From Aliicoccus persicus (GTDB lineage: Bacteria > Bacillota > Bacilli > Staphylococcales > Salinicoccaceae), in NCBI RefSeq assembly GCF_900110815.1, contig NZ_FOIT01000004.1, positions 156,079 through 209,326 of the forward strand: DNA of 53,248 bases, written 5' to 3'. Of the stretch, positions 495-33,067 are shown one piece after another. The notes beneath the pieces were generated by a model. The model saw nothing but the letters and a program-made list of their open reading frames with translations. It searched no databases and was not told the origin of the DNA. Each line of letters begins with the position of its first letter. Positions within the stretch are counted from its first letter, which is position 1. The position numbers were made by a program, and so were the translations under genes.

Positions 495-1145
495 TCACTC
501 ATCACTGTTCATTTCTTGAATCAGTGCGTACATTTGATAGTACAAATACATGAACGACATGATATATGGATTTACGATTCGGTCTAGATCTGGTGTCGGC
601 ACGACTTCTCGTGGTGACTTCAGATCAATAAAGTGATGAACGGACTCGAAGTCCACCGGACTTTCACCTGCGGAACCTTCTCCACCTGTTCCAGCGATCC
701 CACCAGCACCAGCACCGCTAGCACCACTACCACCAGCACCGCTAGCACCACTACCACCAGCACCAGCACTGCCAGCACCACCAGCAATTCCACCACCAGC
801 TCTGCCACCTTTCTTATTACACACCAACACGTATTCAATGTTCTCGACCTCGAGCTCCTCCAAAAACACAGATAACGGCTCGTCTGCGTATTTGCTGAGA
901 ACTAACACGCGGTCAGCGCTCGTGATCGGGGCAATACCGCCGAACTTCAATGCGCCGGGCAACGCTGTCTCACTCTCAGTTAAAAAGTCTTCGAGTAACT
1001 CGAAGTCGCCGAACCCTCGAATATAAACATTTCCTTCTCCAAATGATGCTTGTGCGAGTAGACGTGCTGCCATTTCAATTTCTTCTGTTTGATCATGTAA
1101 GCCGTTCAAAATGTGTGTGAACTGTGTTTGTAGTATTTTATCCAA
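495..1145 (-). CDS. DUF2529 family protein with Gly/Ala/Ser-rich insert
   Basis: 216 aa. The N-terminal 110 residues (ARLLAQA, GEGNVYIRG, DRVLVLSKY) and the C-terminal 50 resemble the DUF2529/YwjG family, an SIS-like fold of unknown function usually found between pyrG and fbaA in Bacilli. Residues about 112-161 are an inserted low-complexity Gly/Ala/Ser tract that looks like an expanded 21-24 bp DNA repeat. The start is TTG, set by AGGAGG seven to eight bases upstream. The gene points away from tal, whereas YwjG, FbaA and the transaldolase normally run together, so a rearrangement has occurred. Family call is from memory of conserved motifs and is fairly secure; role unknown. Confidence 0.75.
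   Translation of the reverse strand: MDKILQTQFTHILNGLHDQTEEIEMAARLLAQASFGEGNVYIRGFGDFELLEDFLTESETALPGALKFGGIAPITSADRVLVLSKYADEPLSVFLEELEVENIEYVLVCNKKGGRAGGGIAGGAGSAGAGGSGASGAGGSGASGAGAGGIAGTGGEGSAGESPVDFESVHHFIDLKSPREVVPTPDLDRIVNPYIMSFMYLYYQMYALIQEMNSDE
663..811 (-). repeat. Coding minisatellite (GGT/GCT/AGC codons)
   Basis: On the minus strand this stretch is built almost wholly from GGT, GCT, AGT and AGC codons. A near-exact duplicated block encodes GAGGSGAS twice. It lies inside the DUF2529 gene and keeps the reading frame. Slippage-prone composition predicts length variation among strains. Confidence 0.75.
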
Positions 1146-3283: not shown

Positions 3284-3307
3284 CCACTCAAGCGAGTGGT
3301 TTCTTTT
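3284..3307 (+). terminator. Rho-independent terminator after murA2
   Basis: Stem CCACTC (3284-3289) / GAGTGG (3294-3299), AAGC loop, then TTTCTTTT. Confidence 0.8.
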
Positions 3308-3308
3308 G

Positions 3309-3317
3309 TGTTACAAT
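3309..3317 (+). promoter_or_regulatory. Extended -10 promoter for glpX
   Basis: TGTTACAAT is an extended -10 (TGn plus TACAAT) 36 bp before the glpX ATG. No good -35 is visible because the preceding terminator occupies that position. Confidence 0.45.
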
Positions 3318-3353
3318 TGAGAAAAGTTTTACACATTCAAGGGGGACTTGTTA

Positions 3354-4319
3354 ATGGAAAGAAGTTTGTCGATGGAACTTGTACGTGTTACAGAAGCTGC
3401 GGCACTACAAAGTGCACGTTGGGTAGGTAAAGGCCTAAAAGATGATGCAGATGATGCTGCGACTACTGCGATGCGCACAGTGTTTGACACAATACCGATG
3501 CGCGGTACGGTCGTGATTGGTGAAGGTGAGATGGACGAGGCACCGATGTTATATATCGGTGAAGAACTCGGTACAGGTGAAGGTCCTGATATCGATATCG
3601 CAGTCGATCCACTTGAGGGGACATCAATCGTAGCGAACGGTGGTTGGAACGCGATGACAGTTCTAGCTGTTGCAGATAAAGGAAACTTACTCCATGCACC
3701 GGATATGTACATGCATAAAATCGCAGTTGGACCAGACTGTAATGGTGTCGTTGATCTAGATGCCAGCGTACGCGAAAATATCGAAGCGGTCGCAAAGGCT
3801 AAAAATAAAGATGTTTCAGAAGTAACGGTAACAATTCTTAAACGTGAACGTAACCAACAAATCATCGATGAAATCCGCGAGGTCGGTTCTCGTATTAAGC
3901 TGATTGATAACGGGGACGTTGCAGCAGCAGTTAATACATGTTTCGATTGGACTGGCGTGGACATGATGCTCGGTTCGGGCGGCGCACCTGAAGGTGTCAT
4001 CGCAGCCGTTGCCATGAAATGTTTAGGCGGCGACTTCCAAGCAAGACTTTTCCCACATAGTGATGAAGAACGTGAACGTTGTAAACATATGGGTATCGAC
4101 CCAGATAAAAAACTCGTATTAGATGATTTAGTGACTGGAGACGATGCAATTTTTGCAGCCACTGCTGTCACTGAAGGTGAATTGATGCGCGGTGTACGCT
4201 TTAAAGGTCAGCATGCAGAAACATCTTCAATCGTTATGCGTGCGAAGAGTGGTACGCTGCGTTTTATCAATGGCACACACAGACTCGATAAAAAACCAAA
4301 CATGGTATTAGATAACTAA
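3354..4319 (+). CDS. glpX: Class II fructose-1,6-bisphosphatase
   Basis: 321 aa, typical of GlpX. It hydrolyses fructose-1,6-bisphosphate in gluconeogenesis and needs a divalent metal. Metal and phosphate motifs GEGEMDEAP (57-64) and DPLEGTS (85-91) are intact. The ATG at 3354 is chosen because GGGGGA sits seven bases upstream and the N-terminus [20 protein letters not shown] matches the family; a TTG two codons earlier is too close to that site. Position between murA2 and rho matches Bacillus ywjI. Confidence 0.93.
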
Positions 4320-4509: not shown

Positions 4510-5811
4510 ATGGCAGACATGAAATATAAGTCTTTTGACGAGTATTATCGTAATTACACGACAAAAGATCTTACGGAAATGGCAAAGGGTTTAGATTTAC
4601 AAAACTATAGCCGATTGAATAAAAAAGAGCTTGTCTTAGCAGTGATGGAAAAAGAGATGGAAAAAGACGGCAACCATTATATGGAGGGTGTATTAGATGA
4701 TATCCAAGCAGATGGTTACGGTTTTTTAAGAACGGTAAACTTCTCTAAAGGTGAGAAGGACATTTATATCTCAGCATCACAAATCAGACGTTTTGAATTA
4801 AAAAAAGGGGATAAGGTGACAGGGAAGGTACGTAAACCAAAAGATAATGAGAAATATTATGGTTTACTGCAAGTAGACTTTATCAATGATCAGAACGCTG
4901 AACAGATTAAAAAACGTCCGCACTTCCAAGCGTTAACTCCGCTTTATCCTGATAAGCATATCCGACTTGAAAATGAACCGAATGAAATATCAACACGTAT
5001 CATGGACTTAGTTGCACCGATTGGATTTGGGCAACGTGGATTAATCGTCGCACCACCAAAAGCCGGGAAGACGACGATTTTAAAAGAGATTGCAAACTCA
5101 ATTACGACGAATCATCCAGACGCAAAGCTTTTTATCTTGTTGATTGGGGAACGTCCAGAAGAAGTGACAGATATCGAACGTTCTGTTGTTAAAGCTGAAG
5201 TTGTGCACTCTACGTTTGATGAGCCACCAGAACACCACGTAAAAGTGGCGGAGCTTGCGCTTGAACGCTCGAAACGTATGGTGGAGATGGGTGAAGACGT
5301 TATTATTTTAATGGATTCGATTACGCGACTGGCTAGAACGTATAACTTGGTCATTCCACCGAGTGGTCGTACGTTAAGTGGTGGTCTTGACCCTGCATCA
5401 TTACACCGTCCGAAGCATTTCTTTGGTGCTGCGCGTAACATTGAAGCGGGTGGCTCACTGACTATTCTTTCGACTGCACTAGTCGATACAGGCTCTCGTA
5501 TGGATGATGTAATCTATGAAGAGTTCAAAGGAACGGGTAACATGGAGCTACACTTAGACCGGAACTTAAGTGAACGACGTGTGTATCCTGCAATTGATAT
5601 TCGCAGATCATCGACGCGAAAAGAAGACTTACTACTCGATAAAAAAGAGCTCGACGTACTATGGCAGTTGCGCAACTTGTTTACGGATTCATCAGATTTC
5701 ACAGAGCGTTTCTTGCGCGTGTTGAAATCGACGAAAACAAATGAAGAATTCTTTGATGTGCTGGCGGGCAGAATGGTTGAATCGAAGAAAACGGGCAAGC
5801 CGATTATATAG
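4510..5811 (+). CDS. rho: Transcription termination factor Rho
   Basis: 433 aa, close to the S. aureus length. Hexameric RNA helicase that ends transcription. N-terminal helical domain, cold-shock-like RNA-binding OB fold with DGYGFLR (68-74), Walker A APPKAGKT (181-188), Walker B VIILMDSITRLAR and the R-loop GRTLSGGLDP. The ATG at 4510 has no strong Shine-Dalgarno, which suggests weak or controlled initiation; ATG 4519 is an alternative. The usual neighbour rpmE is displaced about 2 kb by the accessory region. Confidence 0.95.
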   Translation: MADMKYKSFDEYYRNYTTKDLTEMAKGLDLQNYSRLNKKELVLAVMEKEMEKDGNHYMEGVLDDIQADGYGFLRTVNFSKGEKDIYISASQIRRFELKKGDKVTGKVRKPKDNEKYYGLLQVDFINDQNAEQIKKRPHFQALTPLYPDKHIRLENEPNEISTRIMDLVAPIGFGQRGLIVAPPKAGKTTILKEIANSITTNHPDAKLFILLIGERPEEVTDIERSVVKAEVVHSTFDEPPEHHVKVAELALERSKRMVEMGEDVIILMDSITRLARTYNLVIPPSGRTLSGGLDPASLHRPKHFFGAARNIEAGGSLTILSTALVDTGSRMDDVIYEEFKGTGNMELHLDRNLSERRVYPAIDIRRSSTRKEDLLLDKKELDVLWQLRNLFTDSSDFTERFLRVLKSTKTNEEFFDVLAGRMVESKKTGKPII

Positions 5812-5880
5812 AGATACGATTTGTGAATAGTCAAAAAGCATGAAACATTATTAAATGTGATTGTTCTAAAGTAGTACAAA

Positions 5881-5945
5881 CATAGTAAAGCGTCTTGAAA
5901 ATCTTAGTCAAAAGATTTTCAAGACGCTTTTCAATCTTTACTATG
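5881..5945. terminator. Long nested inverted repeat after rho
   Basis: A perfect 19-bp stem (5887-5905 with 5912-5930, loop AGTCAA) is enclosed by CATAGTAAAG (5881-5890) and CTTTACTATG (5936-5945). It is longer than an ordinary terminator and marks the start of the accessory region. It could end rho transcription in both directions or be a remnant of a small mobile repeat. Confidence 0.6.
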
Positions 5946-6667
5946 ATTTTGAATAGTTCAATTTTTAGGTCATGTACTATACTTCTGAGTAAAATTTAAA
6001 AGTTTCATGCTTTGAACACGATAATCTACATGGAAAAGGACCTAAGATACAAAATAATACTGTGTTGTGTTTATGATTTTTCTACAAGTGCTTATAGAAT
6101 GGAGAACGAGGTATTTTATATAAAAAAATCCAAAAAATCAGAAAATTCTAAAAAATAGTTTACATCTACAATAAATATGGTTTAATTGAAATAATAATAC
6201 TTTGTTGCCAACAAAAAAATTAAAATGAATCTTGATATCAAAATAATTATGTCGAAAGGAGATAGATACTATTAGTTTTTCAATATTGTTGATGTAAAAT
6301 GACGAATCAGGATTGGATGTGATTGATGTTTCGATTTTAATATTATAGTAAGAGCGTTTTGTGCACGTGCTTGTGTTATGAGTTAATCGAGATTTAGGTA
6401 ATTCATTGTGAAATGTAAAGTTTTAATGTTGTTAACAATGGAGTATTCATAAGATGTATTGAGAAATGTAATGGAAACCTTCCTAAAACAACTAGGTCGA
6501 TATGAAAAGTAATTGTTCTTAAATGATTGGATTAAAAACAATTGTATTCTTTTGACAATTAAATTGTTCGATTCAGAATCAGTAGATTTATATTTTTGTT
6601 GTGATTGAGATTTTATACTAAAAACATCGTAATGCTATAAAAATAAAAATTTTAAAATGGTGATTGT
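5946..6667. other. AT-rich gene-free stretch upstream of the Cys-rich protein unit
   Basis: No coding frame of normal size is visible. Seen here: a strong ribosome-binding-like AAAGGAGAT at about 6255 that is followed only by a tiny open stretch without ATG, GTG or TTG at the right distance; a TTGTTAACAA palindrome (6429-6438); and repeated ACAATT/AATTGT boxes between 6511 and 6567. The composition is much more AT-rich than the flanking housekeeping genes. Confidence 0.5.
6552..6580 (+). promoter_or_regulatory. Candidate promoter with overlapping palindromes
   Basis: TTGACA (6552-6557) followed 16 bp later by CAGAAT (6574-6579). Two perfect palindromes overlap it: ACAATTAAATTGT (6555-6567) and GATTCAGAATC (6570-6580). 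This looks like a repressor-controlled promoter for the two genes at 6668-7658. Confidence 0.4.
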
Positions 6668-6850
6668 ATGAAATATATGTATTTGCATATCGTTAACGTT
6701 ATTGTTCATGTTGTGGTCATTATAGTTATTGGGATGATGTCTCATGGAGGTATTCTTCCGTCGGTTTATATACCGGTAACATTGCTGTTTGCGACGATTA
6801 GTATAATTTTGCTAAATATACACACTAGAAAGGCTGGGAAAAATGATTAA
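6668..6850 (+). CDS. Small two-helix membrane protein
   Basis: 60 aa with two hydrophobic segments (about 7-24 and 30-49) and a basic end NIHTRKAGKND. No family recognised. Its last 8 bases overlap the next gene, so the two are translationally coupled. A weak GGTGA lies before the ATG. Small two-helix proteins of this shape beside secreted peptide genes are often immunity or export helpers, which is the favoured but unproven role here. Confidence 0.65.
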   Translation: MKYMYLHIVNVIVHVVVIIVIGMMSHGGILPSVYIPVTLLFATISIILLNIHTRKAGKND

Positions 6851-7658
6851 AATTACACGTTTATTTATGATAGTTGCAATTATTGTTACTAGTTATGTAT
6901 CTCAAATCGGTCTGGTTCAAGCATATGATGGTGAAGAATTTAAGAAACAGTTACTTATAAAAAAAATTGAGTCTACTGAATTTTTTAATGAACATGAGAA
7001 TCAAATGATTAGCGAAAAACCACACGTTATAAATGATTTGCTAGATATAAATCAAGAGAAAATTGGCTATTTAGTGCAATATGAAGTGGAAATGGTAAGT
7101 GAGGAACATTTAATTCAAAATGATAGTGAAGAAGATTTTATTGTAGAAACAACCATAACTTCGCTACTAACTTTTTTATACAATGAAAAAGAAAGTGTGA
7201 TGGAGGTACTTTTGGTTGATTACTCATCTATTGAGTCAGAAGGGATTATTTATCTTAGAAACTTTACTAGTGATGTAGTTGAGGAAATTTTGCTTGCTGA
7301 TTCTAGTAACAAAGGCTTGAAAGAAATGTCAAGTGATGTTAAGAAATCTAAAGATATGGCAGTTGCAGCAGCAAAACAAAATATAGGATCAGGTAAAGTA
7401 GGGGAAGATGCAGAGTTAAATCCAGATTATCTACCGGGTTGCAGATATTGGTACTGTTCTGAGTTTATAACAGGTGGAGGAGATTATCATGGTAATTGTA
7501 GTGCTCTCGCTGGTGGGGTTTGTGGCGTCACTGGGGCATTTACAAGGGTTGGTAGTGCGATATGTTATGGATCAAGCCTTTTAGGTTGTTATGTGCCTAA
7601 GTACAAGCAGTGTGTGAGAGGATATTGGTTAACAAAGAACTGTCCAATTCAATCATAA
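6843..7658 (+). CDS. Secreted Cys-rich protein, putative halocin C8-like bacteriocin precursor
   Basis: 271 aa. A signal peptide (hydrophobic 7-25, likely cleavage after VQA, residue 27) is followed by an acidic middle region (28-190) without cysteine. All eight cysteines (200, 205, 219, 227, 241, 249, 257, 267) are in the last 72 residues. The segment NCSALAGGVCG and the spacing of the following cysteines resemble the halocin C8-like bacteriocin domain, whose precursor also carries a long N-terminal part that gives immunity. By analogy the C-terminal 75 residues would be the released peptide. No protease, ABC exporter or modification gene is nearby. Alternative: an uncharacterised disulfide-rich secreted protein. 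Confidence 0.55.
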   Translation: MIKITRLFMIVAIIVTSYVSQIGLVQAYDGEEFKKQLLIKKIESTEFFNEHENQMISEKPHVINDLLDINQEKIGYLVQYEVEMVSEEHLIQNDSEEDFIVETTITSLLTFLYNEKESVMEVLLVDYSSIESEGIIYLRNFTSDVVEEILLADSSNKGLKEMSSDVKKSKDMAVAAAKQNIGSGKVGEDAELNPDYLPGCRYWYCSEFITGGGDYHGNCSALAGGVCGVTGAFTRVGSAICYGSSLLGCYVPKYKQCVRGYWLTKNCPIQS

Positions 7659-7686
7659 TAATTGTTATTATAGGGAAACTTCATGC

Positions 7687-7715
7687 TTGACCGCAATGAA
7701 ACATGCGTGTATAAT
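7687..7715 (+). promoter_or_regulatory. rpmE promoter
   Basis: TTGACC, 17-bp spacer, perfect TATAAT (7710-7715). It gives a leader of about 65 nt. Confidence 0.8.
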
Positions 7716-7721
7716 AACTAA

Positions 7722-7781
7722 TTGCGACGCGTGAAAGACGCGAATAACTCTGTTCCAGATGGTTCAGGGCAAAGGAGAGTA
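7722..7781 (+). promoter_or_regulatory. Structured 5' leader of rpmE, candidate L31 autoregulatory RNA
   Basis: Contains GACGCG...CGCG arms (GCGACGCGTGAAAGACGCGA) and a second region CTCTG...CAGGG just before AAAGGAGAG. Ribosomal-protein leaders for L31 are known in Firmicutes; whether this matches that class was not tested. Confidence 0.4.
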
Positions 7782-7786
7782 TAATT

Positions 7787-32520: not shown

Positions 32521-33053
32521 TGCGTGTCAGTGAGCAAGTTTCATTGGAACGCAAACCAAACTGCGTGTCAGTGAGCTAGTTTCATTGGAACGCAAATTCG
32601 TTTGCGTGTCAGTGAGCAAGTTTCATTGGAACGCAAATCAATCTGCGTGTCAGTGAGCAAGTTTCATTGGAACGCAAATCAATCTGCGCGTCAGTGAGAG
32701 AGTCTCATTGGAACGCAAATCAATCTGCGTGTCAGTGAGCGAGTCTCATTGGAACGCAAACCAATCTGCGTGTCAGTGAGCGAGTTTCATTGGAACGCAA
32801 ATCAATCTGCGTGTCAGTGAGCGAGTCTCATTGGAACGCAAACCAATCTGCGTGTCAGTGAGCTACTCTCATTGGAACGCAAACCAATCTGCGTGTCCGT
32901 GAGCGAGTTTCATTGGAACGCAGATCAATCTGCGCGTCAGTGAGCAAGTTTCATTGGAACGCAAATCAATCTGCATGTCTGTGAGCAAGTCTCATTGGAA
33001 TGCAAATCAATTTGCGAGTCAGTGAGCAAGTTTCATTGGAACGCAAATCAACT
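32521..33053. repeat. Tandem array, 41-bp period, 13 units (right copy)
   Basis: Units start every 41 bases from 32521 to 33013. The unit contains TGCGTGTCAGTGAGC, TTTCATTGGAACGC and a variable AAATCAATC. It is in reverse orientation to the array at 1-180. ACGCA and TGCGT flanking the variable octamer can form a hairpin at each junction. Between yidC and cls, two converging genes, so it lies where two transcripts meet. Open frames across it are not considered genes. Confidence 0.93.
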
Positions 33054-33067
33054 GCTAGACCGTTTAC

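Follow-up and report, generated by a model that had tools for sequence, protein, structure and literature searches.

Two overlapping genes lodged between rho and rpmE of Aliicoccus persicus appear to form a bacteriocin unit: with a probability that we put at about two in three, they encode a prepro-bacteriocin of halocin C8 type, secreted by Sec, released by proteolysis and disulfide-bonded, together with a membrane protein that is a candidate guardian of the producer. The window in which they lie, to which all positions refer unless another locus is named, is the whole analysed stretch of 53,248 nucleotides. The genes, their architecture, the family to which they belong, a distant relationship in both tail and pro-region and the recurrence of a small membrane partner all come out of the computations. 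Since NCBI curators already model bacterial precursors of halocin C8 type (TIGR04450 and NF040679), the kind itself is known; what appears to be new is an eight-cysteine branch matching none of TIGR04449, TIGR04450 and NF040679.

The larger gene (6843–7658, plus strand) encodes a putatively secreted precursor of 271 aa. Residues 1–27 (6843–6923) resemble a Sec-type signal peptide, whose cleavage at VQA/YDG was placed by eye. They are followed by a cysteine-free pro-region (residues 28–199, 6924–7439), a candidate inhibitor and/or immunity part, and by the candidate mature peptide (residues 200–271, 7440–7655), which gathers all eight cysteines of the protein, none occurring earlier. Acidic in its middle region (charge −20.8, pI 4.3), the protein has a basic tail (charge +3.8, pI 8.7). 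This contrast is strong in the A. persicus precursor and its paralogue and weaker or absent in other members, so that it may not be a general feature. A preliminary description of this DNA had announced open reading frames at 6668–6850 and 6843–7658, a signal-like start, an acidic region free of cysteine and eight cysteines in the last 72 residues; all of them are found in the sequence. Moreover the precursor frame is more than a chance opening, as it has a paralogue in the same genome and homologues in other genera. No significant NCBIfam or Pfam family was found for the precursor, the PADLOC and PHROGs searches returned nothing significant, and the tail profile and full profile found no meaningful match among PDB sequences. 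Three Pfam matches below the cut-off—Staphostatin B for the precursor (E 0.36), Gtr1/RagA for the paralogue L002 (E 6e-4) and YkuD_2 for the homologue L055 (E 0.004)—were set aside as unrelated; they are not common to the homologues scanned.

The rho–rpmE interval (5812–7786) spans 1,978 nt in A. persicus against 116–139 nt in the six relatives compared (six of the 32 other genomes of the taxonomic family, from five genera), the count starting in each case at the last sense codon of rho. The unit thus sits in an insertion of about 1.85 kb that all six relatives lack, and its sporadic occurrence is not that of a core gene present throughout the group. In 300-nt windows the GC content is 24–31% over 5800–7299, 34–41% at the Cys-tail end and 32–49% in rho; the AT-rich insertion between normally adjacent genes, as first described, is therefore real, except that the tail end of the gene is not AT-rich. 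Behind rho the terminator scan places a long terminator-like hairpin (5887–5930, scored on the minus strand), and the region holds two terminator-like sites for a mean of 0.3 in shuffles. The promoter scan returned 11 sites, shuffles 11.8, and hence we make no claim on promoters. Neither of the two genes identified in the interval is a kinase, a regulator or a transporter, and the unit contains no protease, transporter or redox gene; without the latter it would depend on the oxidoreductases of the host. Elsewhere in the window, units of 41 and 51 nt are repeated in tandem at 1–179, 280–476 and 32521–33055, the last stretch holding about 13 copies of the 41-nt unit, and a 216-aa ORF (495–1145, minus strand) is broken up by a low-complexity stretch, rich in Gly, Ala and Ser, that short tandem repeats encode (repeat part 700–798).

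Judged from its sequence, the precursor belongs to a separate family that has no curated model and that occurs in Bacilli and also elsewhere in the phylum. The own-genome paralogue (G000:C2, L002) matches residues 38–270 with an E of 2.3e-17. Relatives were detected in two of 33 genomes of the taxonomic family, A. persicus and Phocicoccus schoeneichii (G020), and in two of 157 genomes of the order. From an even draw of 398 genomes of the class, 26 matched at E ≤0.1; among the loci that were read, those of A. persicus, G320 (E 5e-34) and G170 (E 4.6e-10) were accepted and the weak matches L057, L063 and L068 were rejected as members. A draw of 398 genomes over the phylum gave five at E 0.01, i.e. 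A. persicus, G871, and G648, G701 and G749 from one genus. The plasmid collection contained no relative and the viral contigs no confirmed one. The phage collection yielded matches in two contigs that bear the label Listeria phage, L105 (2.9 kb) and L106; the ORF of L105, a low-coverage contig, matches the precursor pro-region at E 9e-6 and has no Cys tail. This locus looks broken by deletion or misassembly, and its true host uncertain.

Nine members could be aligned over the tail: A. persicus, its paralogue, P. schoeneichii, G320, G170, G871, two of G701 and one of G749. All nine share the eight cysteines and a proline three residues past the sixth of them, mostly as C[YW]VP. The G871 member (L078) has only 107 aa and consists of hardly more than the tail behind a signal peptide; another copy in G871 (L083), with an odd end and no clear signal, was dropped, so that the tail profile holds nine of the ten tails assembled. 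In G701 the array of contig C4 (L099, 7462–11342) runs redox-like protein, precursor, membrane gene, precursor, membrane gene, and its two precursors have nearly identical pro-regions and different tails, which suggests a diversification of the putative toxin. The paralogue was counted as a member despite the missing signal in its open frame (1426–2151 of L002); a signal-like ORF (1371–1484) overlaps the start in another frame, and thus the paralogue may be broken, as if by a frameshift. Its precursor and a divergent 90-aa membrane gene are bracketed by a 160-nt direct repeat (697–856 and 2193–2352 of L002, 99% identical, 1,496 nt apart), which looks like a removable or duplicated cassette.

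The cysteines of the A. persicus precursor are spaced 4-13-7-13-7-7-9, a slight deviation at both ends from the nine-member consensus 2-13-7-13-7-7-8, whose fourth gap is variable. Among haloarchaeal tails, L052 is spaced 2-7-3-7-13-7-8-8-6—2-11-7-13-7-8-8 if its two extra cysteines are removed—and L053 and L054 are both spaced 2-7-3-7-12-7-8-8-7. The A. persicus spacing differs from the haloarchaeal one by a total deviation of 6, and random placements of eight cysteines came equally close in 6 of 20,000 trials. For each of the eight members tested (L078 was left out of the nine), between 0 and 6 of 20,000 random placements in an equally long tail matched its closeness to L052. The 7-13-7 core is identical to that of L052, two of the ten archaeal cysteines being missing. 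The cysteine order was thus rightly compared with that of halocin C8 in the preliminary description. The same C-x7-C unit is present in the NF040679 tails (7-7-21-7-7) and the TIGR04450 tails (7-3-13-3-7).

A match to TIGR04449 had been proposed as a check, and this expectation fails: the precursor gives no hit up to E 10 and its genome none (cut-off 24 bits). The best homologue scores 11.8 bits as a protein and 14.1 bits in the genome search, whose matches above E 0.001 in G020 and L022 were looked at. TIGR04450 (cut-off 27 bits; loci read in G126 and G223) hits neither the precursor nor its genome; NF040679 (cut-off 200 bits) does not hit the precursor and gives 8.5 bits (E 1.3) to the paralogue. 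When the homologues L003 and L002 were run up to E 10 against 18,950 NCBIfam models, each had a single match and both matches were of halocin C8 type, TIGR04449 for L003 (E 0.38) and NF040679 for L002. L055, L056 and the isolated tails of the precursor and of L002 matched none of the halocin models, nor did the members of G701, G749 and G871 at E 0.1.

Kinship appears when profiles are compared. With hhalign, a tail profile of the three nearest members matched three haloarchaeal halocin-C8-type proteins (probability 80, P 1.3e-5), with a score reached by none of 150 full-profile shuffles and none of 200 tail shuffles in which the Cys columns were fixed. The match falls to P 2.5e-4 with five members and is weaker with the nine-member tail profile (probability 2.6; 0/100 and 1/100 shuffles), which has no similarity to the TIGR04450 tails (37/100 and 31/100 shuffles). 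As to the pro-region, a five-member profile matches the NF040679 family with probability 78 and P 1.9e-5 over 109 columns (0/150 shuffles). The best-aligned piece is the first helix, I-K-x-[ST]-[DE]-x-[FY] with exceptions; a helix-loop-helix is predicted by AlphaFold2 at the start of the pro-region (residues 30–54, 6930–7004), in a stretch that aligns with the staphylococcal family. This piece is significantly similar between the staphylococcal and haloarchaeal families (0/150 shuffles) and not between the A. persicus family and archaea directly (14/150); over the whole pro-region the latter two do not match (68/200). In a broad sense the A. persicus family is halocin-C8-like, its tail and its pro-region being each homologous by profile to a curated family. 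The likeness first described thus stands for the kinship of tail and pro-region and for the cysteine framework, but does not extend to membership of TIGR04449. As no curated model matches and as the kinship weakens with nine tails, we consider the family a sister branch by distant homology, outside TIGR04449, TIGR04450 and NF040679, and not a member of any.

The smaller gene (6668–6850, plus strand) lies upstream of the precursor gene and overlaps it by 8 nt (6843–6850), which suggests translational coupling. It encodes a 60-aa protein with two hydrophobic segments (residues 6–24 and 33–51, mean hydropathy 2.59 and 2.22), a candidate dedicated immunity protein, for which NCBIfam, Pfam, PADLOC and PHROGs gave no significant family match. 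The membrane partner pointed out in the preliminary description proves to be recurrent: an ORF of 40–120 aa with at least two hydrophobic segments and no more than 600 nt away accompanies 11 of 14 precursors—loci that are not all independent, the two G701 precursors sharing one counted neighbour and L053 and L054 being closely related—versus 14 of 129 control genes taken by a simple longest-ORF rule (Fisher p 1.4e-7). The partner is found at 7/9 loci of the A. persicus family, 2/2 of TIGR04450 and 2/3 of haloarchaea; the five staphylococcal NF040679 loci, which bring the precursors counted to 19, stand outside this tally and have a partner at 1/5. The misses are L081, L100 and L052, although L081 and L100 do have a membrane gene, which the rule on hydropathy or distance excludes. 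The count omits L083, the broken precursors L103 and L105/L106, as well as L084/L104, L087 and other partial NF040679 copies; L101 served solely in the control count.

The arrangement of the partner changes from locus to locus. It is divergent in the paralogue locus and in P. schoeneichii, divergent with another ORF in between in G320, and 26 nt downstream of the precursor in G170; in G701 the members of each of the two successive precursor-partner pairs overlap by 4 nt, as they do in G749 and in the broken copy of G648. Sequence similarity between partners is low: for ten partners, 7 of 45 pairs stand at ≤12/400 shuffles, strongly so only the two TIGR04450 partners, and the two G701 partners are 40% identical. 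The family searches gave no significant domain in the partners. Such rapid divergence of small membrane proteins encoded next to a toxin gene would be expected of dedicated immunity proteins.

At some loci redox-like genes are also present. In G701 a protein of 354 aa is encoded upstream of the pairs; its N-terminal stretch is thioredoxin-like and its membrane part, judged by eye, resembles DsbD/CcdA, with Pfam thioredoxin hits below the cut-off and no DsbD hit. Behind the short precursor of G871 comes a WCLYC-motif protein—a long frame of unclear start with weak ResA/TraF hits only—and then a 118-aa multi-helix ORF. On L105 the precursor-like ORF is followed by a protein with a thioredoxin-like C-terminal half (below the cut-off) and by a hydrophobic ORF of 79 aa. 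In A. persicus itself, the membrane gene beside the paralogue is about 0.7 kb from a ResA-CcsB-DsbD-like cluster, a proximity that could be due to chance. On the structural side, the AlphaFold2 model of the precursor has a mean pLDDT of 44.9, with the tail below 50 and helices at residues 30–43 and 46–54 (block pLDDT 70–77), and that of the P. schoeneichii homologue a mean of 34.0, both runs using an alignment of these two sequences only. Queried with the first model, Foldseek gave 624 matches at E 10, of which 50 were listed, but not one at E 0.001, and hence we make no claim on the fold.

For secretion, cleavage, disulfide formation, killing and immunity we infer a scheme that follows the processing of halocin C8, as set out in PMC11509114 and PMC12893001. 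The 271-aa precursor would be exported by Sec and lose its signal peptide, while the acidic pro-region would keep the basic cysteine-rich part inactive; the pro-region may itself confer immunity, by analogy with HalI, the immunity part of halocin C8 according to PMC11509114. A general extracellular protease encoded outside the unit would cut the linker before residue 200; for halocin C8 the protease is described as unidentified in PMC12893001. The freed peptide, of about 72–76 residues and with up to four disulfides, would then act at the envelope of related bacteria, and the co-translated 60-aa protein, seated with its two helices in the membrane of the producer, would protect the latter.

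Even if the unit makes a bacteriocin, immunity might come solely from the 60-aa membrane protein, the pro-region being merely a chaperone or an inhibitor lost after cleavage. We regard this as a real possibility, towards which we do not quite lean. Small membrane genes do accompany 11 of the 14 precursors, and in G871 the 107-aa member suggests that the pro-region is dispensable; on the other hand it is precisely the pro-region that matches the staphylococcal halocin-precursor family, and in halocin C8 immunity resides in HalI, as stated in PMC11509114. A more radical doubt bears on descent: the resemblance to halocin C8 could be a convergence towards the C-x7-C disulfide pattern, in line with a tail similarity that is strong only with three members and with a precursor that TIGR04449 misses. 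We find this unlikely, as shuffles that keep the cysteines never reach the three-member score (0/200) and as the pro-region independently matches another family of halocin C8 type.

The tail could also be a secreted domain without antimicrobial activity, such as a protease inhibitor, an adhesin or a structural element bound to the wall, with the membrane gene as its anchor or processing partner. The lack of any profile hit for the precursor would fit, as would small partners that vary in sequence, order and orientation; yet the kinship of both tail and pro-region with halocin-C8-type precursors, the scattered occurrence, in 2 of 157 genomes of the order, and the tandem precursor-partner pairs of G701 make it more doubtful still than convergence. 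Pairing with a membrane gene is also seen with genes for signal peptides, so that one might think of a secreted signalling peptide with the small membrane protein as its receptor or exporter. This appears very improbable for a unit that comprises no kinase, regulator or transporter and whose partners show no significant domain, the more so as an eight-cysteine tail of about 75 aa is large for a pheromone. We retain the halocin-C8-type bacteriocin with its membrane guardian as the most probable reading.

A wider reading, which we hold tentatively and at a little less than even odds, is that halocin C8 belongs, as its archaeal branch, to a cross-domain superfamily of prepro-bacteriocins secreted by Sec or Tat, with tails built of C-x7-C disulfide units and a dedicated two-helix partner, joined in places by a thioredoxin/DsbD-type module, that travels with the toxin; the A. 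persicus family would be a new bacterial branch of it. As part of the same reading, the two-helix protein would be a second layer of immunity besides the HalI-like pro-region, also at the archaeal loci. We found no description of this membrane partner recurring across bacteria and archaea in the open-access literature, a search that left subscription papers largely uncovered. The small membrane gene, found as well beside two of the three archaeal loci, offers a specific candidate for the immunity factor. With a bacterial sister family whose Gram-positive host is easy to handle, it would besides become possible to test the protease, the formation of disulfides and the site of immunity—pro-region, membrane protein or both.

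Among known systems, NF040679 (halocin_of_epi, “halocin C8 precursor-like protein”, Staphylococcus) shares with the A. persicus family a signal, a pro-region homologous by profile that bears the first-helix motif I-K-x-S-[DE]-x-[FY], and a C-x7-C tail. It differs by its six-Cys tail (7-7-21-7-7, or 19 for 21 in L042), by a basic pro-region, by a small membrane partner at only one of five loci and by a model that the A. persicus precursor does not match. Several of its copies in genomes of the staphylococcal order (L043, L044, L045, L046 and L048) are truncated or have an inner stop, which suggests that the NF040679 family frequently decays in that order. TIGR04450 (Gpos_C8_like, “putative immunity/bacteriocin fusion bifunctional protein”) is likewise a secreted fusion, in Firmicutes, of a pro-region and a Cys-rich tail, with a divergent two-helix gene of 67–77 aa at both loci examined; but its tail has about 42 aa and six cysteines (7-3-13-3-7) and no profile similarity, and its model is unmatched.

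The haloarchaeal precursor of halocin C8 (ProC8, TIGR04449, halocin_C8_dom) differs by ten cysteines instead of eight, a CxxC start where the A. persicus precursor has C-x4-C, an acidic rather than basic tail, and a Tat signal (PMC11509114) where that of A. persicus is Sec-type by eye; the C[YW]xP-type motif after the sixth cysteine, conserved in the A. persicus family, is absent from the three archaeal tails. The halC8-like gene of L053 is flanked by a divergent gene for a two-helix protein of 75 aa (2033–2260) and, downstream, by a gene for a one-helix protein of 68 aa (3304–3510); genes of the same kinds flank that of L054 (2026–2253 and 3299–3505), and all are annotated only as hypothetical. 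The two systems nevertheless share a signal, a large acidic pro-region (HalI in the archaeon), a Cys-rich C-terminus, of 72–88 aa in halocin C8 precursors, the core 7-13-7 (L052) or 7-12-7 (L053 and L054), an initial CxxC in archaea as in most members of the family, and, at two of the three archaeal loci, a divergent two-helix gene next to the precursor.
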